NCBI GenBank assembly: GCA_032718865.1
Contig: JALUTQ010000033.1
Location: 1,178,001 to 1,242,000 of the forward strand
DNA length: 64,000 bases
Direction: 5' to 3'
Source of the DNA: Tilletia caries
Lineage: Eukaryota; Basidiomycota; Exobasidiomycetes; Tilletiales; Tilletiaceae
The notes beneath the pieces were generated by a model. The model ran no database searches. It was not told the DNA's origin and saw nothing but the letters and a program-made list of their open reading frames with translations. Positions within the stretch are counted from its first letter, which is position 1; every line of letters begins with the position of its first letter. This document shows positions 51,333 through 64,000 of this stretch, piece by piece. Made by a program: the position numbers and the translations under genes.

Positions 51333-52778
51333 AGGGTGTTGGCTGAGCTGGAGGCGAGACGGTTTTCGAGGTCGACAATTCGTGCTTCGAGCTCTTTGTT
51401 CTTTCCCGCAAGAGCTGTCTTCTGCGCAATCAATTTTTTGTTCGCTTCCAGGGTCTTCGCCGTGCCCGCTCGTCCCGCCTCTCTATACGTGTGCATTGTC
51501 GTTTTGAAATCTTTCGCAGCTTTCTCCGTCATGCTGCGCAATGTCGGTCGAGCGGCATCGCAGAGATTAGGACTGGCGTAGAAATGATCTTGGGCTTCAC
51601 GCTTCGCAGTCTCATCTAAAGGGCCAAATGCGACGATGACAGCGAGTCCGGTTCTGGCAGAGAGCTTGGCACCCTACACTTGAAAGCATGGAGAAGGGTT
51701 GTCAATTGCTCATGCTTTCATACTTGTCTGACAGCTGACATTGACTCAAATCGAAAACTGACCTGCTCTACTAGCCTCCACGCTCCTCGCTTTGCTACAC
51801 GCAACCGCGTTTCTGGGTTCGACTCGTAGCTGTAGTGTTTCATTGCGTAGTTGTGCGACTTTGGCAGGTTCACTGTCATTCAATCATGAAGAAGAAATTT
51901 GCAGATCAGCATCCAGAAACTTGGACTTTTAAAGTGCTGCTCAAGCACTCGCAGTCTGCAGATGATACTCTATACTCACGCCATATCTCGCGATGCTTGC
52001 TCTCCGTGAGGGTGGGTTCGGCTCGAGGATTCACATTCATGCGTTGCCTCTTCTTGCCTTTGTCGACAGCATCCTTGTTGAGATCATTGTCATCTGCAGA
52101 GACACACAAATAGGTTAACTATCACCTTCCCGAGTTGAGCGTCTGCTCTCTTTCACAAATACTCACTAGTATCAGCATTGCGTTCCACTTCTGAGCCTGA
52201 GTCCGATTCGCTGTTGCGACGCGTGACGATCCGTGGGTCTGAGGCATCATGATCATGCTGAGGCCTGGACATAACCGAGTCGAGGAAACGCGGCAGCCCA
52301 GGTGTGTGCGTGCTGAGACCAGTTGTAGCATGCGAAGCAGTATCCGGGACAGGTGCAGGAACAGGTGGGACGTGCGCAGCAGCAGCAAGGGAGGTTGAAG
52401 CTGCATCGAGATCTCCAGTGGACATGCGAGCCGCCGAAATGGCGGCAAGAAGCGCCGTTGATTCATGAAGCCTGCCGGCGGCGGCATCGTCTTGCTGCAC
52501 GTCGACACGAGCTGGCGCGGGAATTGCTGTGTCCGGTGCTGAACCCGTAGGCGTAGGCGTAGGGACAGATGCAGGGGCAGGGCCAGGGCCAGGGCCAGGG
52601 TCAGACAAAGTCTGGTCTTCGCTCGCCGTTGAGGAAAGGATTGGCGCTGAGGAATGAAAGAAGGTCATCAACGAGGACAGCATCATTGTATGTGAATGCG
52701 CTACACAGTACTCACCTTTCCCCCGAGATGCTTGAGCTCCTTTATAGTGCGCACAGGGCAACAGTTGACGCGATCCAT
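51329..52778 (-). CDS. Accessory coiled-coil protein encoded by the KDZ element
   Basis: Starts at ATG 52778 (MDRVNCCPVRTIKELKHLGG). Five to six exons with consensus donors follow. A Pro/Ala/Thr-rich segment (SEDQTLSDPGPGPGPAPAS, then ALLAAISAARMSTGD) leads to a basic exon (NKDAVDKGKKRQRMNVNPRA), an exon with LPKSHNYAMKHYSYESNP and LRVAKRGAWRLVEQ, and a last exon with LSARTGLAVIVAFGPLDETA ending in a coiled coil (KLIAQKTALAGKNKELEARI, VDLENRLASS). I see no break in frame. No known family; KDZ elements of fungi are known for extra domains, but I cannot match this gene. Its stop shares CTAG with the transposase stop. Nuclear, DNA- or transposase-associated action is only inferred from the basic segment and the context. 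Confidence 0.65.
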
Positions 52779-52964
52779 CTTGATTGAAGCAGCCGCGACC
52801 GCATCGACGACCTGGCTCTGTACAGCAGCAGATCGAGGTTAGAACAGCGCGCGCAATGCTTTTCTACTCTGCGCTACTCACTAGACATGGCGCTGGCTCT
52901 TTCTGTGTGTTGGATAGGCAATCCTGGGAGCCTGGATGCCTGCTGGTGGTGCTGATGAGGTGGT

Positions 52965-53088
52965 ATCTGACTGAATTCTTCCTTGCGGTTTTTGTTACAA
53001 GAACCACCACCTGCCCCGCTCTCAGCTCCCTGTTGTCCACCTCTCGGACATCTCCTGTCCTGCTACCAGCCATCTCCTGTCCTGGTTA
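52965..53088 (-). repeat. KDZ element right terminal inverted repeat
   Basis: Inverted counterpart of the left terminus, with an internal duplication of gacaggagatg that adds about 24 bp. It lies upstream of the accessory gene. Confidence 0.85.
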
Positions 53089-53170
53089 TCAACAAGGTTT
53101 GATCAAACACCTTACCGTCGATCTCAGCCCTAGCGTGCTGATATCCTAAGGTTTCCCCTCGCATCGAGAG

Positions 53171-53178
53171 TCCTTAGC
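53171..53178 (+). repeat. Target site duplication of the 8.5-kb hAT element, left (TCCTTAGC)
   Basis: Exact copy at 61,658-61,665 after the right terminus. This shows that everything from 53,179 to 61,657 derives from one insertion and its later changes. Confidence 0.9.
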
Positions 53179-53568
53179 CAGTGGTCGGCATGGATGAGAA
53201 ATCGGATGAGAGGGGGTCCTCATCCACATCCACATCCACATCCGATCAGAAATTTTCCCCTCATCCACATCCACATCCACCAGATCCGATGTCACTCGGA
53301 TGTCATTTGCTTATGTAATCCATTTTTCGGCGCGTGGCTGCCACTCACGTGGCAGCCCTCCGCACCCGACTTTCATCGGACCTCATCGGATGTGAACGGG
53401 TGATGACCAGATGGCATCCGATGTTACTGCAGCTGACATCCGTTTACCATCGGATACTCCTTCGGCACTTCATTTGTGCCATCCTGCTCCTCACTTCCGC
53501 GTCTTCTCATCACCAACGTACGGTTCCATACACCCTGTCAGTATCATGACATCCCAGACCGAACAGAA
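53179..53568 (+). repeat. hAT kinase-side terminal region (directly repeated at 60,495-60,884)
   Basis: 390 bp nearly identical to 60,495-60,884. It includes the terminus, catcc-rich repeats, the presumed kinase promoter and the first codons of the kinase (MTSQTEQK). Confidence 0.95.
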
Positions 53569-56241
53569 GGCCATTCTCAACAGAGGCCTCACAGAATATT
53601 GGCCTTCTCCTAGTGTCGTGCAGCAACTCGACCTTCACAAGCTTCTCTTTGGTCGACCAGACGCTCCCGGCTCGACCCTCGTGCCGCTCTTGGCGAAATA
53701 TGGACCAAAGCCTGAGAAGCTCTTCGTCAGTGGCGACACGATCACATGGACGGACACCCGCGGAGCCGGCCCTCTCGGTCCTGCGATGGAGTTACGGCTG
53801 CTCCTTCTCTCTTTCCAGCAGCTCGAGGGACAAGCACCGGATCTTGACATCCCACATGTCGCGCAGCAGCTGGTGCCCTGTTTGGCCTCTCATGTCCTCA
53901 CTCATCTGACCGGCGCAGCCTTGGAGCAGAGCGAGGCGCTGCTTCAGGATCCTCAGGCGAACGAATATGGCCGGATGGTTTTTCCAATGAGCCCAGCGTT
54001 GTTGCACCTTCAGGTTCAGCAAGCAATTTCGACCAAAGAGGTTCACATGCTAAGGCAGTTTGTGGAGACTCAGACATCGGATGCATCCAACAGTCAACAG
54101 CAGAAGGACGAGCTCGACGAGATACGGGCAGAGCTGCGGAAAGCAGAGCAGGCGATTACAGCGGCGGAGGAACTGGAAATGCTGCTCGAGAAGGCTTGTT
54201 CTGACGTCAAAGAACTGGAGGCGCAGGCGGTGCGAAAAGAGACGGAGATCGTCCACGCGAAGGATCAACTTCGGGCCTCTGCAGAGCAAAGCAGCCAGGA
54301 GATCGCCAATCTACAAGACCGCCTTCGAGAGGCCGTACGAAAGGGCGAGAATGCATCCGCTGACAGCCATCTGCGCCTCACCACAGCTGAGGACCATCTC
54401 AAGGCCTCCGTCCTCCGAAGACCGTCTCAAAGTCTCCGAAGACCAACTGAAGGCCGCCCTGAAACAGGAAAAATCCCTCAAAACTCTTCTTCGCGAGGCT
54501 GATGCACGCAAGGCCTCGGACGACGACCGCTTGCAAGCAGCGCGCAACTATGGCAAAGCTTTGGAAGAACGACTGCAACAGGCGGAAGACCGGGTGAATC
54601 CACTGGAGGCTCAGCTCAATACCTTCGAGCAGCGGAGCCGAACAGCGCAGGTTAACACGGAGAAGCTTTCCAAACAGAAGCAAGATCTGGAGGATAACGT
54701 GCGGAGCTTGACGTCCAAGTGCGACGAAGCGACGGAGAAGCTGCACTCTTCCGAGATCGAATGCGCCAAGCTCAGGGAGGAGCTGCGGACAAAGATCGAA
54801 GCAGAGAAACGGTCGGAGAACACGAGGACATCAAACCGACACGCCGGGAGCGACACTGCGTTTGCTACGACGATCGCGCTGGATGCCTTGAAAAAGAACG
54901 TGAGTAGGCCGGCACGATGTTCTTCCCACAGATGCCGGCTCGCTGAATCCTGACCTTCTCTCTGAACTATGGCTCTTCCAGTTGAAATCGGCAGACCAAA
55001 AGGCGCAGCGTTTGCAAGCTGAGCTGGACGGCATGGTACGTTTGTTCGTCGTTCATCGTTATCCCTCCAGTGCAGAGATACTGACGTCCTCGTTTGACCG
55101 TCGGCTGTAGCGAGCGCAGATTACGGAGACCAATCGTACAGCCGAGGCTTCTCTGCAAGCTCCTCAAGAAGTACGTCTCCTTCCCACGAACCCCATTTGG
55201 CGCGACGCAGCCCGTTATTCGATCGACCCTCAAACTCGTACCGTGGGTGCCGGTGCGCACGGGAGGGTGCGTGTGGTCCGCGATGACCTTACTCGCAATC
55301 GTGTGGTGGTGAAGGTGAACGAGATTCCTCCTCCTGGGGTTCTTCCGCAACATATAGGGCGCGAGATCGACTTTCTCGCAGAATCGAGCTGCGACTACGT
55401 CGTTCCACTCCTGGACGTGGTTCAGTTCATGGAGGGACAGCATCACTTTCTTGGACTGGTCATGCCGTTCTATCCTCGCGATCTGGAAGGGGTTATCTAC
55501 GACTTCGCAAGGAACCTCAACGTCAAAGACATCACCCACTACGCCAGTCAATTCTTGTCCGGACTCTCTTTCCTGGCGTCGCGCGACATCATCCATTGCG
55601 ACTTGAAGCCTGCTAATTTGCTGGTCGGAAAGAATCACCAACTGGTCCTCGCCGACTTCGGCCTGGCGGAGATCAGAGTCCGCCCGCAGCAGAGACGGGT
55701 TATCGCATCGATGAATTACCGCTCGCCCGAGTGCTTCTTCCGGACTGAACAACGCGGGCAGTCGCTGGACATTTGGGCGTTTGGGGTTATTTTGGCGGAG
55801 ATGATCGGTCGAGCCTTGCCCTGGGATGGATCCACGCCCCTGGACATTTTTGAACAGATCCTTCGTCACACCGGTGTTCCTTATCAAGCGGAGCTGTTCC
55901 CGGGTGAAGGCAAACTCCCCGGTGTGTTCCACGGACAAGACATGCACAGCGAAAGGTCAATCCCACCGACTGGGCAAGTCAAGTTCGATCCACGCCCTCG
56001 GCTTCTGCCCATGTCGATCGACACCTGTGGAACCTCTCGAGATCATTTCCGTGATCTCCTTGCGCTTGTGGACCGGACACTGGTCCTCGATCCGGCACGC
56101 CGACCGTCGGCATCGCGACTGCTGGAGTCGACCGCCTTTCGGGATTCAGATCCACGGGGCGATAGGAAGATGCAGCCTTTTGGATCCGAATTGAGAGCAT
56201 CGGATGTTGCTGAAATCAGACGTTCCCGGCGGCGGTTGTAG
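53546..56241 (+). CDS. Transposon-borne coiled-coil serine/threonine protein kinase
   Basis: Exons 53546-54899, 54982-55035 and 55111-56241 give about 846 codons. Residues 1-170 are a globular region (YWPSPSVVQQLDLHKLLFG; MELRLLLLSFQQLEGQ). Residues about 190-470 form a long coiled coil (DEIRAELRKAEQAITAAEEL; LHSSEIECAKLREELRTK). The kinase domain follows: Gly-loop VGAGAHGRVRVV, catalytic Lys RVVVKVN, catalytic loop IIHCDLKPANLL, DFG in VLADFGLAE, YRSPE in the activation segment, and SLDIWAFGVILAEMIG. All key residues are present; YRSPE and the overall order resemble CMGC/CDK-like kinases. One extra base near 54,413 shifts the frame in the coiled coil, so the printed copy is interrupted. An aataaa lies near 56,504. 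Promoter and start lie in the element's terminal region. Role in transposition or as cargo is unknown. Confidence 0.8.
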
Positions 56242-56339
56242 TTACATAGGCACGACCTTTCTCTGTCAATGCAATAGAGTCTATGTTGGCCTCTCCTGTT
56301 CGTCGCTCCCCGGAAAACTTCTGATATATAGCGCTGGAT

Positions 56340-56480
56340 CAATTATCCAGCGATCATCCGCGATTACCCAGTCTCCATCCAAAGGTCATCCGTAGTCATC
56401 CAGTGCCCATCCGTTTGTCATCCGTAGGCATCCACTATTCACCCGTGTATCATCCACCTTCACTCTTTGTACATCCAGTC
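56340..56480 (+). repeat. CATCC-motif array in the kinase 3' region
   Basis: Ten or so catcc/catccg motifs at irregular spacing of roughly 10-20 bp, downstream of the kinase stop. They are of the same type as those in the element's ends, although this place was internal in the inferred ancestral element. Confidence 0.6.
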
Positions 56481-56636
56481 ACATCGGGATTTCTAAGTGA
56501 CACAATAAAGCAAGTGCAGGATGATGCCATTCTAATTCGAGCAAAGCTACAAGGTCCGCTGAGCCTCCTGCGCCGAGTTAGGAGTCGCCATTGCTGTTGA
56601 AGGGTTGCCAACTTCGGATTGTTCAGATGCCACTGA

Positions 56637-56644
56637 CTTGGGCG
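56637..56644 (+). repeat. Internal target duplication CTTGGGCG (complement CGCCCAAG at 60,487-60,494)
   Basis: Lies immediately before the terminus at 56,645. The complementary copy lies immediately before the terminus at 60,495. Opposite orientation of the two copies is what an inversion after insertion predicts. Confidence 0.8.
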
Positions 56645-57424
56645 CAGTGGTCGGCATGGGTGTGGATGACCGGTGGATGTGGATGTCATATCATCCGACC
56701 AATCGGATGTGGATGTGGATGAGGCGGCTGATTTTGGTTTCAGCTCGGATGTGGATGAGGCGGATGAGATACATCCGGATGTCTTCCGAATCCGACCCTC
56801 ATCCGACCGTGATCAGCTGATGCATGGATGACATCCGGCTGAAGTACGTGAAAGCCAATTTTTCCGCCATTAAACTGATTCTTGATTTTTGAAATTGCAA
56901 ATTTTGGTGTCATCGGCTTAGATCCCGGTCAGATCGGATGATTGTCTGCTCTTGGTTAGAATGATCATCGGTCCATCACCTGATCTCATCCATGCGCAGC
57001 ACGCTGAAAAGACTTTTGTCACCGGTCAGCTCCATCACCACCACCACATCCATTCACCATTGCCTTCAGCAAGTTTCCCGACCATGCCATCATACGCGCA
57101 GGAACTCAAACTCTTGGATATCACCGGGCAATGGTTTTGCCATGGCCTTGAGACCGAGGAAATGGGCCAGGCGCTTTCTTCGCTCTCTCTGTTCCCTCAG
57201 GCCACCGCAAGCTGGAAGGCCTTCCTGGAATGCAACGGCGAGTTCATCGACAAGAAGGAGCCCGAGGAATACGACTTCTCTAAACGAGTGAGTAGCTAGA
57301 TGACTCATGCGCTGCGACGGATAGGGTCTCGATGCTGACATCCGCTGTCTCTTCTTGTTCCTGCCTTCAGCCTCGCATCGACAACTCCATCGTGGAGGCA
57401 GCGTTTAAGCAGTTTGAGAGCGAT
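56645..57424 (+). repeat. hAT transposase-side terminal region (inverted at 60,885-61,657)
   Basis: About 780 bp, present as a close inverted copy at 60,885-61,657 with small differences. It contains the terminus, ggatg repeats, the presumed promoter, and exon 1, intron 1 and the start of exon 2 of the transposase. Confidence 0.95.
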
Positions 57425-60400
57425 CCCACCCCGGGGAACTTTGACAAGATACTCATGGACATCAAGAAAAAAGGTCAGCCTTCCTCTCGGCAGCCCACCT
57501 CTACCGCCGGAACGTCATCGTCGCTCGGAGTCGGTTCAAAGCTCCATGTCCCGACTCGAAAAGGATCGGTCTCCCCCGTACGCGCAAGCACACGAGCGCG
57601 TACGCAGAACCGCAGATACAGCGGCAACTTTGAACTCTCGGGTGACGAAGGATCTCGCGGACGCCAAGGGAAGGCCGCTTCTCCGTCGGACCGATCAGAT
57701 CCTGCCGATGACGATGGCGATATCACGGTTGTCGGTCGTAAACACCGCAAGACCATCCTTGACGACAGCGACGACGAAGATGAAGACGCTCTTCCGGCCT
57801 CCCCCGTGAGAAAGAAGCGTAAGAAGGGCACGGATCGATCCAGCGCAGAAACTGCTCCAAAGAAGAAGTTTCGCCCGACGCAACAGGAACAAGAAGTCTA
57901 CACCAATACCAGAGCATCTTCTGCGGTGCAATCCCATCATCGAGGATCTGCACCTCGATTGTCGGGTCAGGCTTTGAATGACGCGCGGATCGAACAGGAC
58001 GGCGATGGGCCCGACAATGACCAGGCAGCACAAGACGAATGCGAGCGCCGAGGGTTTGGGGCTGAAGAAACGCGCAAAGCGCGAGCCGAAGCCAAGGATC
58101 GACAGAAGGACGTCGTTAGGGCAAAGAACGGGCAAATCCAAGACTGGCGATACCCTGCTCTCAACGAAGTCCAGAGCATCACAGTCCTGAAATACTTCGA
58201 CCCGGTTTCCAAGCTCGAACCGAGTCCTGGATTCATCAAGTCCATCACTTGGAAATGTCGTTGCTGCCACCGCACGTTTACTGCGGCTCCAGGGATTACC
58301 ACAAACCTCCTCGGACACCTGAACGCGAAACCAGGCAGAGGGCCATGCCCCGACCGGGACAATCCTTTGACAAAAGGTGTCGAACCCTGGATCCCGTCAT
58401 GGGCAAAGGACGACGAGTCTGCGCGTGTGCCCGAACCAGCGAAGGGACTTGATCTAGATGCAATGTCGCAGCGGTCCTTCATGTCGAAGTGGACGAAGCA
58501 GGTCCGTCGCTCCGCCCTCGAGACGCAAACCGCCAATCAACGGCGAGCGACCCTCGTTTGGATCGTGATGACCAGTCAGCCTTTCACAGCGGCTCGGAAT
58601 CAGCATTTTCGGAGGATGATGGCCAGAGCCAACACAGCTGTTGGGGAGTCAGCACTCAAGTCGGCACGCACGATCGGACGAGATCTCGACAAGATGCATT
58701 CTTCGCTGTTCACCCAGGCTATTGAAGCGATCAAGACGGCAAACACCAAGTTTTCCATCCAACACGATGGCTGGACGACACGTAACAGACGTGCGGCATT
58801 TCTCGCAGTGCACGCTAGCTGGATCGACGGCAACTTCGTTCGACGGGAGGCATGCATCGCGTTCAATCAGCTCGGCGCCGACCATACCGGAGCTACTTTT
58901 GCTGCGCACATCGTCTCCATTCTCAAAGAGAACAAGCTGTGGGACCATTGGTCGGGAGTCATTGTCTCCGACGCTGCCGAGTCCAACATCCGCGCATCGC
59001 GCTTTATTCAACTGGAAGTCGACAGCGAAATCGGCTCCGTCGTCCCAATGCGGCACAAGATCGTCGACTCCCTTGTCCTTTGCTTTGCTCACGGACTCAA
59101 CCGCGCGGTTCTGGACGGTACGGCTGCAGCAGGAGCCGAGCTTGCTATGGTCGAGAAGGACAACGACAAAGTTCTTGCCCCTACGATTATGATCGACGAG
59201 ACCGAGGTCGGGGGCGGGCTGCGTCGATACACTGGGCTGGCTGCCGAGCAGGAGCTCAGCGTCGAGGAGAAGGAACTACAACAGGAAGAGGAGCAGATGC
59301 GCGCGGAGATGGCCGAGCTGATGGAAGAGCCTGTTCCGGATGGCGACGGCGAAGAAGGGGACGGAGAAGATGCAGATGCACTTAGTCCCGATGATGCCGA
59401 AATCGTCCAAGAATACGAGGCCTCGGACGTGGACGAAACTTCCTCAGCACTTACCCGAATTCACCAATGCTTGGTGAAGATTCGATCCTCCCCGAAATCA
59501 CTGACGCAGTTCACCGAACTCATCAAGAGCTCATACCCAGGAGAGAAGAAGAAGGTGGTTCCGATGCTTCGCAATGCGACGCGATGGAACTCAGCTCTGG
59601 TCGAGATGCGAGGCTGCGTTAACGTCCAACGGGCTTTTACAGCGCTGGTCAATTCGGACGAAACTGGCAAGTGGGGACCTTTCTCAATTTCGAGACCGGA
59701 ATGGTTGGCGATGGAGAAGCTCGTCGACGTTCTCGAGTGCGCTGAAGTGCTCAGTCTCGATGCCCAGTCGCGGGAAGCTTCGATCGGCGACGTCCTGTTC
59801 TTCCATCACGTCCTTCGAACAAATCTACAGCTTCAGCTCGACTCTCTCAAGGAGATCAGAGAAGGCACAGCTGCATACGGCGTGAAGAAGGCGATCATTG
59901 CGATGCAAAAAGCACGACAAGTACTTGAAGAGGACCAAGAAGAACGAGTTGATCATCGTAGCCACGCTCATGCATCCCGGATACCGGCTCGAATGGCTCG
60001 AAGCGCACTTTCCGTCACAGGCTCACGGTGCGCACGATCTGCTACGCGAATACCTCGACACATTCGTTGGCCGGGAATCAAGAGCCGAGGAGAATACCAT
60101 TCAGACGAAGTACGACCGCTTCATCGGAAGCCAGCGTTGCGCTCCAACATCTTCCAGCTCGCAGGCCGACGAAGTCGAGAAATACCTGTCGAAGCTATAC
60201 AGCTGGGGCGCAAACGACTTGCAGACAACGGACGGAGCAGTCGCGTGGTGGAAAAGACATGCGATGCTGCTTCCGCGACTCTCCATTCTCGCAAGAGTGG
60301 TGTTGTCGACCCCTGCAAGTACAGCGGTAGCGGAACGCGGTTTCAGTCACGCCGGGATCTTTTGCTCTCCTCGTCGAAACTTGGGCCCTTCCAGCATTCA

Positions 60401-60494
60401 GAAGCTGACGATGTCAAAGCTCCTGATGCTGAGCGGTTTCGATGGCTACGGTGAACCCGACATCGTCGATGAGCTTCCGCAGCTCACGCCCAAG
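57084..60494 (+). CDS. hAT transposase with BED-type zinc finger
   Basis: Exon 1 57084-57287 (MPSYAQELKLLDITGQWFCH) joins at 57371 (PRIDNSIVEAAFKQFES). A basic/acidic disordered part is followed by a BED-like finger (WKCRCCHRTF, then LLGHLNAKPGRGPC). The catalytic core has the first Asp in SIQHDGWTTRNRRAAFLAVH, the second in SGVIVSDAAESN, and CFAHGLNRAVL. After an acidic insertion come NATRWNSALVEMRG and the C-terminal Glu and dimerisation region (STPASTAVAERGFSHAGIF, then RNLGPSSIQKLTMSKLLML). The frame shifts once in a run of A near 59,912; removing one A restores continuity with the next frame. The natural C-terminus has been moved: past 60,494 the frame runs into the inserted terminus, while the expected continuation is found on the minus strand from 56,636 down to a stop at 56,547. 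Confidence 0.85.
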
Positions 60495-61657
60495 CAGTGG
60501 TCGGCATGGATGAGAAATCGGATGAGAGGGGGTCCTCATCCACATCCACATCCACATCCGATCAGAAATTTTCCCCTCATCCACATTCACATCCACCAGA
60601 TCCGATGTCACTCGGATGTCATTTGCTTATGTAATCCATTTTTCGGCGCGTGGCTGCCACTCACGTGGCAGCCCTCCGCACCCGACTTTCATCGGACCTC
60701 ATCGGATGTGAACGGGTGATGACCAGATGGCATCCGATGTTACTGCAGCTGACATCCGTTTACCATCGGATACTCCTTCGGCACTTCATTTGTGCCATCC
60801 TGCTCCTTACTTCCGCGTCTTCTCGTCACCAACGTACGGTTCCATACACCCTGTCAGCATCATGACATCCCAGACCGAACAGAAATCGCTCTCAAACTGC
60901 TTAAACGCTGCCTCCACGACGGAGTTGTCGATGCGAGGCTGAAGGCAGGAACAAGAAGAGACAGCGGATGTCAGCATCGAGACCCTATCCGTCGCAGCGC
61001 ATGAGTCATCTAGCTACTCACTCGTTTAGAGAAGTCGTATTCCTCGGGCTCCTTCTTGTCGATGAACTCGCCGTTGCATTCCAGGAAGGCCTTCCAGCTT
61101 GCGGTGGCCTGAGGGAACAGAGAGAGCGAAGAAAGCGCCTCGCCCATGGCCTCGGTCTCAAGGCCATGGCAAAACCATTGCCCGGTGATATCCAAGAGTT
61201 TGAGTTCCTGCGCGTATGATGGCATGGTCGGGAAACTTGCTGAAGGCAATGGATGTGGTGGTGGTGATGGAGCTGACCGGTGACAAAAAGTCCTTTTCAG
61301 CGTGCTGCGCATGGATGAGATCAGGTGATGGACCGATGCATTCTAACCAAAAGCAGACAATCATCCGATCTGACCGGGATCTAAGCCGATGACACCAAAA
61401 TTTGCAATTTCAAAAATCAAGAATCAGTTTAATGGCGGAAAAATTGGCTTTCACGTGCCTCAGCCGGATGTCATCCATGCATCAGCTGATGACGGTCGGA
61501 TGAGGGTCGGATTCGGAAGACATCCGGATGTATCTCATCCGCCTCATCCACATCCGAGCTGAAACCAAAATCAGCCGCCTCATCCACATCCACATCCGAT
61601 TGGTCGGATGATATGACATCCACATCCACCGGTCATCCACACCCATGCCGACCACTG
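60495..61657. mobile_element. 1.16-kb deletion-derivative portion of the hAT element
   Basis: Starts with the kinase-side terminus (390 bp) and switches at 60,884/60,885 to the inverted transposase-side terminus (about 773 bp). It is thus an internally deleted copy lacking most of both genes, with both termini intact. Its left end is preceded by CGCCCAAG and its right end by the outer target duplication, so it is not an independent later insertion. Confidence 0.85.
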
Positions 61658-61665
61658 TCCTTAGC
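61658..61665 (+). repeat. Target site duplication of the hAT element, right (TCCTTAGC)
   Basis: Matches 53,171-53,178 exactly. Confidence 0.9.
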
Positions 61666-64000
61666 CATCCCTTGTCCGCGCCATCCTTGTCCTCCCCTGA
61701 TCGCTTTGATCCATGAACCTTCGAGTCTGATCCGGACTGCTCGGGCCGGGGCAAAAGTCCAACACTCCCTCCTGCACCGTACCGAGAGGCGAGAGGCGAT
61801 GCTTGGCAGTCGCGGCCCGCAGACGAGATACGAGAAGCCGCAGTGGATGTCGATGCGCCGGCTCGATGGCGTGACGCACGCGTCGACGGGTTGCGGGCGG
61901 TCTTGGAGCTGGGACTCCCAGTGGCAGGTGACTGGTTCGTGGTCGCACAGCCGGGCTGGAAGATGGCCGTGGGGCATCGGAGGCAACGCAAGAATGCGCT
62001 GGTGCGTTGTCCTTGCCTGCGTCAGCGAGCGGTCGTGTGTCGCATGCCAGCCGGGTATCCAGCGACTCGTGGGGGCTTGGTCCGATGAAAAACCTTGGTC
62101 GTATTCGGGAGCTGTCAATCCGACGCTGTGCTGGCCGTATTCGTCGTTGCCGTGAGAGGCAAAGCACCAAGACTTGAAGCTCTGCAGCAATTGCCCCCCT
62201 CTGAGATCGCAGTAAGGAAAATGAGTGATCTGCTGGTCGTGGAGACAAGGAGCGCGCAATGCTGAGCGAGGTTCCCTCGCAATGGACCGGTGTTCACAGC
62301 TGCTTGCCGCTCTGCCGAGTGCCGAATGCTCGGTGTGAGATGGCGGTGGACCATCGAAGAAACAAGCCGTCGACGTTGTTGCGGCGTGTGTCCGAGACAG
62401 CAGCTGGTGATTTGCTGTTGTGTGCTCGATCGTGAACTGGGTTTGGCCAAAGGTGTGCTTCGTGATAGATGGCATAATTGGACCAATTTCACCCGTACCA
62501 CGAACCATCTCCACATCGTTCGCACATGACACCCCATTGTGAACATGCTTCTGCCGATCTGAGTTCACCCAAACATGCCACACTGCGGGCGCGGTTTGAC
62601 CGTGCGTGTCTGCGTGTTGCTTGGGATACAACCCAGCGGGCAACTGACCCATGCATCCTTGTGCACATATTTCTCCGAACATCTGCATGCCGTGTGCGCT
62701 CGGCGCGGGGCTGATGCGCGTGTCGTCCGCGAGAACTGCTTCGCCGAAGCCAGCGGAATGGACGCTATGAGCGTAGCCGGTCCTGGTGCTGATTGTAGAA
62801 ACCATGGTCGAGTTGCAGGGGTGCTGCGCCGCATTGCTCTTGGCGTGTGCAGGGATTGCAACATGCCCAAGGTGAGACTCTTGGAAGTCCCGACAAGCAG
62901 TGTCTTTGGCCGATAGAGACGTGATTGCCACTATCGCTGAGACAGACGAGCACGAGAGGGCTGCAGCGGCGGGGTCCTCGTCAACGTTGAGATCGCCATA
63001 GACGCAAGGGGATGTCGGTATCCGCATCGCTGCTATCGGTCCCGGGATCATGCTGCATCCGGGTGATGAGCTGGCGGACGGTGGTGACGATACTGTCTCG
63101 TGTCGGAACGCAGAGCAGGTGACCGTTGTCCTTGCGCACGCTGTTGATTCCTGCACGCGCGCTATCTGGACCGGCCGCTTGCTGTATGATGTCACACTCC
63201 GTGTGACAGTCCCAATTGCGTGCGCGACTACATCCGCCGTTCCGGCTCCCTCCTGCTGTGCTCCCTCCTGGACCGTTCGCACCTGTTGAGCTCCCTCCTT
63301 TTTCCATCTCTCCATCTGATGAGCTCCCTCCGGTCCCGTTCTCCGCTGCGTCCCATTCCCCTGACTCCCTGCTTCCAGAACTGCATGACCCGGTCGCCAC
63401 TGCAGTAGCTGAGCTGTGCTGAAGGAGAACCCGCAGCTCTTGGCATCGCCGTGGCTGTGATAAGCGGCGCCGTGACGGAAGGCTTGTGAGGTGTCCGCTG
63501 CTCCCGCGGGACTGATGATGAGCTCGCAGTCCTCGGTATCGCTGTGGCTGTGACCGATAGCACCGAGGCAGGAAACTGTGGCATGCTGGCGACTCCTTCA
63601 GCAGCTTCTGCAGCAGCTCGAGGTCGCCTTCGCGACTCCGTGGGCTGCACCTCGCGGGAGTCGAGGCCGATGCCGGGACAGAAAACTCGCTGCGCGTCGT
63701 TTGCTGCTGCTGCTGGGGATGCTGAAACGGCGGATCTTGTTGCAGCAGTCGATGCCGCAACTCGCGATGCCGCGCCTCGTGAGTGACACTGGAACGGGGT
63801 GGCACGGTAAGGTACCCGCGTTACGAGTGCTGGTGGTGGAGGAGGTCGAGACCACGTCTCCGATTGCATCGTTGTTCGCACAATCACCCCCGTAAGAGAA
63901 CCCAACCGCTTCGCTTCCTTCACCGCCGGCTCCACATGATCACCCCTTCCAGTCACAACTCCCCCCTTCACAACTCTCTCCGTCATCGCTCCCTTCACCA
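61666..64000 (-). other. Unrecognised region with long minus-strand open frames
   Basis: A minus-strand frame of 560 codons (63,315-61,633) and another of 274 codons (63,805-62,981) overlap here. The first has an unusual composition (rich in His, Ser, Thr, Ala), no domain I know, and its end lies within the hAT terminus. The second contains Gly/Ser-rich repeats (gagctccctcc units at about 63,230-63,345 on the plus strand) and a plausible C-terminus (IVTTVRQLITRMQHDPGTDS). A gene cut by the right window edge is possible. Function unknown. Confidence 0.25.

Follow-up and report, generated by a model that had tools for sequence, protein, structure and literature searches.

Transposons of the hAT superfamily usually have one gene. 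The available text of PMC12730594 describes rust IS3EU transposons of several families that have an alpha-kinase gene opposite the transposase, and TET/JBP genes that pass among fungal transposons including hAT7; the available part of PMC4469406 describes alpha-kinases as highly expanded in rusts. The subject of this report is a hAT insertion in Tilletia caries that encloses both a BED/hAT transposase gene and a gene for a protein kinase. The sequence analyzed (termed the window) is a stretch of 64,000 nt, C28:1178001–1242000, and the genome searched comprises 38.1 Mb in 40 contigs. One insertion spans window positions 53179–61657, as displayed by its ends, its target-site duplication and empty sites, and it is a two-gene mobile unit.

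The Tilletia element resembles classical hAT elements (Ac, Tam3, hobo) in its 8-bp duplications, CAGxG-type ends, BED finger, dimerisation domain, sub-terminal repeats and internally deleted derivatives. It differs from these in having a second, convergent gene that encodes a protein kinase. The nearest parallel found is the rust IS3EU group, also DNA transposons with a transposase and a kinase in opposite orientation; as described in the text available, however, these have a transposase of another superfamily and an alpha-kinase, whereas the Tilletia element has PF00069 and hAT domains. The TET/JBP genes of hAT7 are likewise enzyme genes that move between fungal transposon lineages including hAT, but according to the same partial source they encode a dioxygenase and the duplications are 7 bp, in contrast to a kinase and 8 bp in Tilletia. 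Styx of Zymoseptoria is a fungal DNA transposon with extra genes, but it is IS3EU-related and the available text of PMC10853768 names no kinase gene inside it. In the main text, as far as available, of two Tilletia genome papers (PMC9172201, PMC7184893) the word “kinase” is absent; one names hAT among transposon classes, and the other has “transpos” in a reference only. A kinase-bearing hAT was not found in a literature search that covered titles and abstract starts, with preprints and most subscription papers outside its scope.

The reading considered best, and held with moderate confidence, is that Tilletia has a hAT lineage whose autonomous form pairs a BED/hAT transposase gene with a convergent kinase gene, and that this kinase has been kept for long, is exchangeable, and most likely targets a host process.

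The original prediction, made from the window sequence, placed one pair of 8-bp duplications around both genes. This was borne out by an exact TCCTTAGC pair, inverted CAGTGGTCGGCATGG ends and empty sites (Table 1). The joined flanks display an uninterrupted 100% match over 135 of 153 bp at C28:1247221–1247355, an unoccupied paralogous site, and there are further insert-free paralogous sites, two on C39 (97%) and one on C25 (87%). Because the joined flanks match empty sites without interruption, the element boundaries are exact. The short terminal inverted repeats, which start with CA and end with TG (CAGTGGTCGGCATGG at both ends), and the 8-bp target-site duplications are those of the hAT superfamily. 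Of 20 loci examined, 18 contain a two-ended copy flanked by a perfect 8-bp duplication, which together with the window gives 19 different perfect duplications (three copies at L012 with one common duplication were counted once; L011 consists of a rearranged cluster, and only one end is recognisable at L013). The ends are thus mobile and multi-copy. Two-ended derivatives examined retain at least 371 bp of the left terminus. In the C3 copy CATCCACATCC is found nine times within 1,170 bp of the ends and is absent from the 6,158 bp between; such a distribution would be expected if these repeats are transposase-binding sites.

Two other full copies, C3:971632–978959 and C25:1018301–1025659, each have their own 8-bp duplication (ACAGTATC and CCTCCGCA), and the halves of the window element match them at 97%–99% identity. 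Both show the order left end, kinase (rightward), transposase (leftward), right end over approximately 7.3 kb, i.e. the genes are convergent (tail to tail). The full-length kinase is inside the element at all three genome places where it was found. The part of the kinase beyond position 945 of the kinase half was found only in the three full copies, and no separate host gene was found at the DNA level (32 of 32 candidates scored). This agrees with the earlier claim that the kinase is a gene of the element and not captured flank, and the situation that would have spoken against the claim, a kinase occurring elsewhere only as a host gene without these termini, was not encountered. The kinase of the C3 copy matches the Pfam Pkinase domain (PF00069) with E-value = 3.7e-38; its reading frame stays open for 821 codons and stops roughly 20 codons short of the usual end. 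The best named protein matches are Tilletia controversa proteins with 98%–99% identity, of which P0001 and P0002 (N-terminally short models) extend to the usual kinase C terminus.

The pairing recurs at many hAT loci of this genome. A Pfam scan gave 77 loci with a hAT dimerisation domain, and 150 of 154 Pkinase matches were used for comparison. Thirty-seven of the 77 loci have a Pkinase match within 6 kb, 34 of them convergent, where a uniform density predicts about 3.6. Three additional loci, all convergent, were paired by similarity to the T. indica kinase P0007. In total 40/77 loci have a kinase match at 6 kb or less and 37/40 pairs are convergent; the three non-convergent cases are the inverted window copy, a hAT adjoining a paired element whose kinase it shares, and one divergent pair. 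Among loci of P0123-type transposases a kinase is within 6 kb at 27 of 36, and when counted on the 77 loci the paired fraction is 27/32 in the P0123 lineage vs. 13/45 in the others. Perfect ends also surround both genes in two distant families, at C4:1036310–1042676 (6,367 bp, ACCATGCA) and C3:618558–626952 (8,395 bp, GCCACGAC).

The search beyond this genome that the original prediction had called for yielded kinase–transposase pairs in T. indica. Kinase CF326_g2646 (70% identity in the kinase region) and transposase CF326_g2647 (70% in the part compared) have consecutive locus tags, each on a 20,823-bp contig. A more distant pair is kinase CF319_g7152 (29%) and transposase CF319_g7150 (45%), with identities again taken from the parts compared, each on a 13,971-bp contig. 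The presence of the same gene pair in T. indica is well indicated. No transposase was linked to the T. horrida kinase P0006 (35%).

Ten kinase domains were read, of which four (C3b, C40a, C4 and C9) were joined from two pieces taken as exons. Eight form a group, termed type A (support 90/95). The other two, one from C4 and one that is the second kinase of C40, fall outside this group and are termed type B; a single origin of all ten is not rejected by the approximately unbiased (AU) test (p = 0.26). A type A N-terminal stretch around “DTRGxGPxGP” is common to P0004, P0006 and P0007, with matches in the window, C3, C36, C3b and C9, where comparable. A script count gave HxDxKPxN and DFG in 10/10 domains and GxGxxG in 9/10; an APE-like triplet was seen by eye in 9/10, and P0004 has SPDSE. 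HRD is found in none of the ten, the residue before the catalytic Asp being F (4), L (3), C (2) or G (1), which is outside the RD class. Twelve comparison kinases, hand-picked from 114 non-Tilletia hits, have HRD (8) or HCD (4). The absence of the HRD arginine suggests that these kinases may be active without activation-loop phosphorylation.

The complete motif set that had been described for the window kinase is present, but the window copy, like C25, has a frameshift within the coiled-coil exon; the window transposase is frameshifted too. The CMGC-like character agrees with the solved structures matched best, CDK2 and p38 (among the best 60 of 2028 matches); in the kinase tree the deep branches are without resolution for a CMGC placement with CDK/MAPK. 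An AlphaFold model of P0007 was set aside because of its mean predicted local distance difference test score (pLDDT) of 45.5.

The trees of the two genes are in conflict. In the transposase tree the window family is placed with P0123, apart from C36 and C9 (support 99/99). In the kinase tree the window family is with C36 (98/96), and P0007, the partner of P0123, is with C9 and P0006 (99/97). Constraining the 22-row tree to unite the window-family kinase with P0004 and P0007 is rejected (AU p = 1.4e-12), as is the same constraint with P0006 added (p = 1.4e-6 in the 22-row tree and 5.3e-4 in the eight type A rows). Two transposase constraints are likewise rejected, one uniting the window-family transposase and P0121 with C36 (p = 9.4e-62), the other joining C9 to P0123 and the C1 transposase (p = 6.6e-6). 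In the transposase tree the branches of C9 and C36 are long, and the pairs at these two loci rest on proximity. This strong disagreement suggests that kinases have probably been exchanged between hAT backbones whose transposases are about 26% identical, a conclusion that is well supported though not proven.

Table 1. Features of the hAT–kinase insertion, in window coordinates.
Feature	Position	Strand	Remark
Left 8-bp target-site duplication TCCTTAGC	53171..53178		Crossed once by empty-site alignment
Left terminal inverted repeat CAGTGGTCGGCATGG	53179..53193	+	Same ends on other copies examined
Left terminus, 390 bp: CATCCACATCC sub-terminal repeats and kinase promoter/start region	53179..53568	+	Repeats counted on C3 copy
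Kinase gene, 3 exons (53546–54899, 54982–55035, 55111–56241)	53546..56241	+	N-terminal DTRG-type region, coiled coil, kinase domain 55234–56133
Nested-insertion duplication CTTGGGCG, one side	56637..56644		Single in C3 and C25 copies
Transposase half of full element	56645..60494	+	Inverted vs. C3 and C25 copies; right-type terminus at start
BED/hAT transposase gene	57084..60494	+	Exon 1 57084–57287, exon 2 from 57371; BED ~58184–58324; dimerisation domain 60174–60416
Other side of nested duplication, inverted (CGCCCAAG)	60487..60494		
Nested deletion derivative of 1,163 bp (390 bp from the left, 773 bp from the right)	60495..61657		Junction common to 4 other insertions
Right terminal inverted repeat	61643..61657	-	Inverted CAGTGGTCGGCATGG ending at 61657
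Right 8-bp target-site duplication TCCTTAGC	61658..61665		Empty sites

In its arrangement the window copy departs from the C3 and C25 copies; the two-gene unit proposed for it holds, but its layout is not the typical arrangement. A kinase-less derivative that keeps the left 390 bp is inserted between the two genes at the site CTTGGGCG, and the segment 56645–61657, bounded by two inverted right ends, is reversed vs. both other full copies. The recurrence of the terminus and first kinase codons at 60495, correctly noticed beforehand, is explained by this nested derivative together with the inversion. Through the inversion, the derivative and the full element may have swapped right ends, at a point that could not be placed. 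Either recombination between the inverted right ends or an assembly error would produce the inversion. The exact deletion junction is found in four other insertions and thus the derivative has probably multiplied in trans; kinase-less derivatives in general are probably mobilised in this way.

At L011 (C4:1780500–1790000) five same-direction ends are clustered, flanked by CGTGTGAC in one orientation or the other. This cluster is a local multiplication of derivative copies by a route other than simple insertion. L012 (C3:1865500–1873500), with three derivative copies in both orientations and one common duplication, is one insertion multiplied by segmental duplication. The left flank of the window element (52800–53117) recurs at 99%–100% identity on C7 and C4, and thus the element adjoins another repeat. 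An Rfam scan of 52500–62500 gave no match at gathering scores.

The transposase has zf-BED (PF02892, 8.6e-5) and Dimer_Tnp_hAT (PF05699, 7.2e-12) domains above cut-off. The nested insertion cuts off its last codons, and the related protein P0122 runs past the insertion point. The window copy has a frameshift in this gene, and the C3 and C25 copies have nonsense codons. An alignment of eight transposases displays two invariant Asp residues; the DDE motifs and the presumed third residue were positioned after Hermes, and this third residue is changed in the C36 protein. The C36 transposase frame (L042, 4806–8255) is open for 1,150 codons, with Met at the presumed catalytic Glu position, and may represent a dead or possibly an adapted protein. 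Two transposase searches, each scoring the roughly 8,000 candidates that shared most words, yielded Tilletia proteins, the unnamed P0125 and P0129, and one Caenorhabditis remanei protein (4% of the query); with this number scored, confinement to Tilletia is not established.

Several other arrangements of kinase sequences were found. L031 (C40:615980–625838) has tandem type A and type B kinase domains ahead of a convergent transposase, and the coordinates indicate tandem kinase domains also at C22:1177307–1179321 and C4:1628198–1630365 (types were read in L031 only). Three hAT–kinase units, spaced at about 19.85 kb and separated by additional hAT fragments, are present at C21:1095131–1144790 and look like a tandem segmental duplication. 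The sequences C28:807998–808807 and C19:1132198–1133790 match the first part of P0007 (837 residues, of which the matches reach residue 571 at most) at 77%–88% identity and lack most of the kinase domain; these are either relics or a reused coiled coil. P0006 of T. horrida has a histone-fold match at its C terminus, which is perhaps a gene-model fusion.

The kinase changes partners across transposases of about 26% identity, and type B occurs by itself in C4 and together with type A in C40. A host target is therefore likelier than a matched transposase. The kinase would work in trans and would act on a host factor met by all elements, e.g. the cell-cycle, DNA-repair or silencing machinery, and the coiled coil would probably serve assembly or targeting. 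It is tentatively proposed, as a possibility short of an even chance, that the kinase, interchangeable and constitutively active-like, shifts repair choice, cell-cycle timing or silencing in the host in favor of transposition, and that families trade kinases as modules.

A number of observations weigh against a long-kept, exchangeable kinase. There is no kinase match at 37 of the 77 hAT loci and at nine of the 36 P0123-type loci. L033 on C1 (4,477 bp, GCCTTTAC), a related element with good ends and duplication, has a transposase without a kinase match. Nor do the 40 paired loci count as independent: three are of the window family, three on C21 look duplicated, and two neighbors share one kinase. 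The T. indica pairing is based on locus tags and equal contig sizes, not termini. No termini were found for C36, C9 and C40 in the stretches examined, and the tree conflict leans on C36 and C9; moreover, the transposase groups tested were defined once the kinase tree was known. The glycine loop of C40b is GxGxxA, with Ala at its end, and HCD also occurs in 39 of the 114 non-Tilletia hits, a set in which word matching favors such sequences. Both genes are damaged in every full copy of the window family, and thus the assembly yielded no autonomous copy of this family in intact form. Copies with different flanks had been anticipated and were found, but the intact kinase frames anticipated with them were not, two of the three full copies being frameshifted and the third having an early stop. 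Nor was the predicted purifying selection recovered: dN/dS (the ratio of nonsynonymous to synonymous substitution rates) between window-family copies is 0.55–0.59 for the whole kinase gene and >1 for the kinase exon, the latter on one silent difference. A 191-codon piece from a 90% copy gives a dN/dS of 0.28, but contains three stops. Three near-identical copies give too few changes for present selection on the kinase to be demonstrable from them.

The alternative that survives best, though rather unlikely, is that the kinase phosphorylates its own transposase as a built-in switch regulating transposition. The two genes co-travel at many loci, and the available text of PMC3902898 reports that phosphorylation of MOS1 transposase by PKA lowers its activity and nuclear entry, which makes phosphorylation of a transposase plausible; for MOS1, however, a host kinase is enough, and the probable exchange between dissimilar transposases speaks against such a switch, as does the occurrence of type B both alone and beside type A. 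Less likely still is a captured host kinase that hitch-hikes as selfish or neutral cargo and does not help transposition. Kinase-less derivatives and the transposase-only relative have moved, the kinase is damaged in all three full copies, and stops are present inside some other kinase matches. Neutral cargo, however, should not retain HxDxKPxN and DFG in every domain read, a common N-terminal region and a convergent position, and a kinase 70% identical to that of T. indica, equal to the transposase, is unexpected of it. That the kinase is a host gene near which a hAT landed, or an assembly artefact, is very improbable: assembly can be misled by nested repeats, and the window copy does show a rearrangement, but three places have the same gene and the same ends with different duplications, empty sites lack the kinase, and the pair recurs at many hAT loci and in T. 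indica; the window inversion could still be an artefact.

If a host-directed kinase carried by the hAT lineage is the correct reading, kinase trading would be a eukaryotic parallel to the accessory genes traded among bacterial mobile elements. Together with the alpha-kinases of rust IS3EU transposons, the Tilletia lineage suggests repeated recruitment of kinases by fungal DNA transposons. Part of the predicted “kinome” in these fungi belongs to transposons, and the kinase–hAT lineage offers a natural system in which to ask what advantage host-directed signalling gives a eukaryotic DNA transposon.

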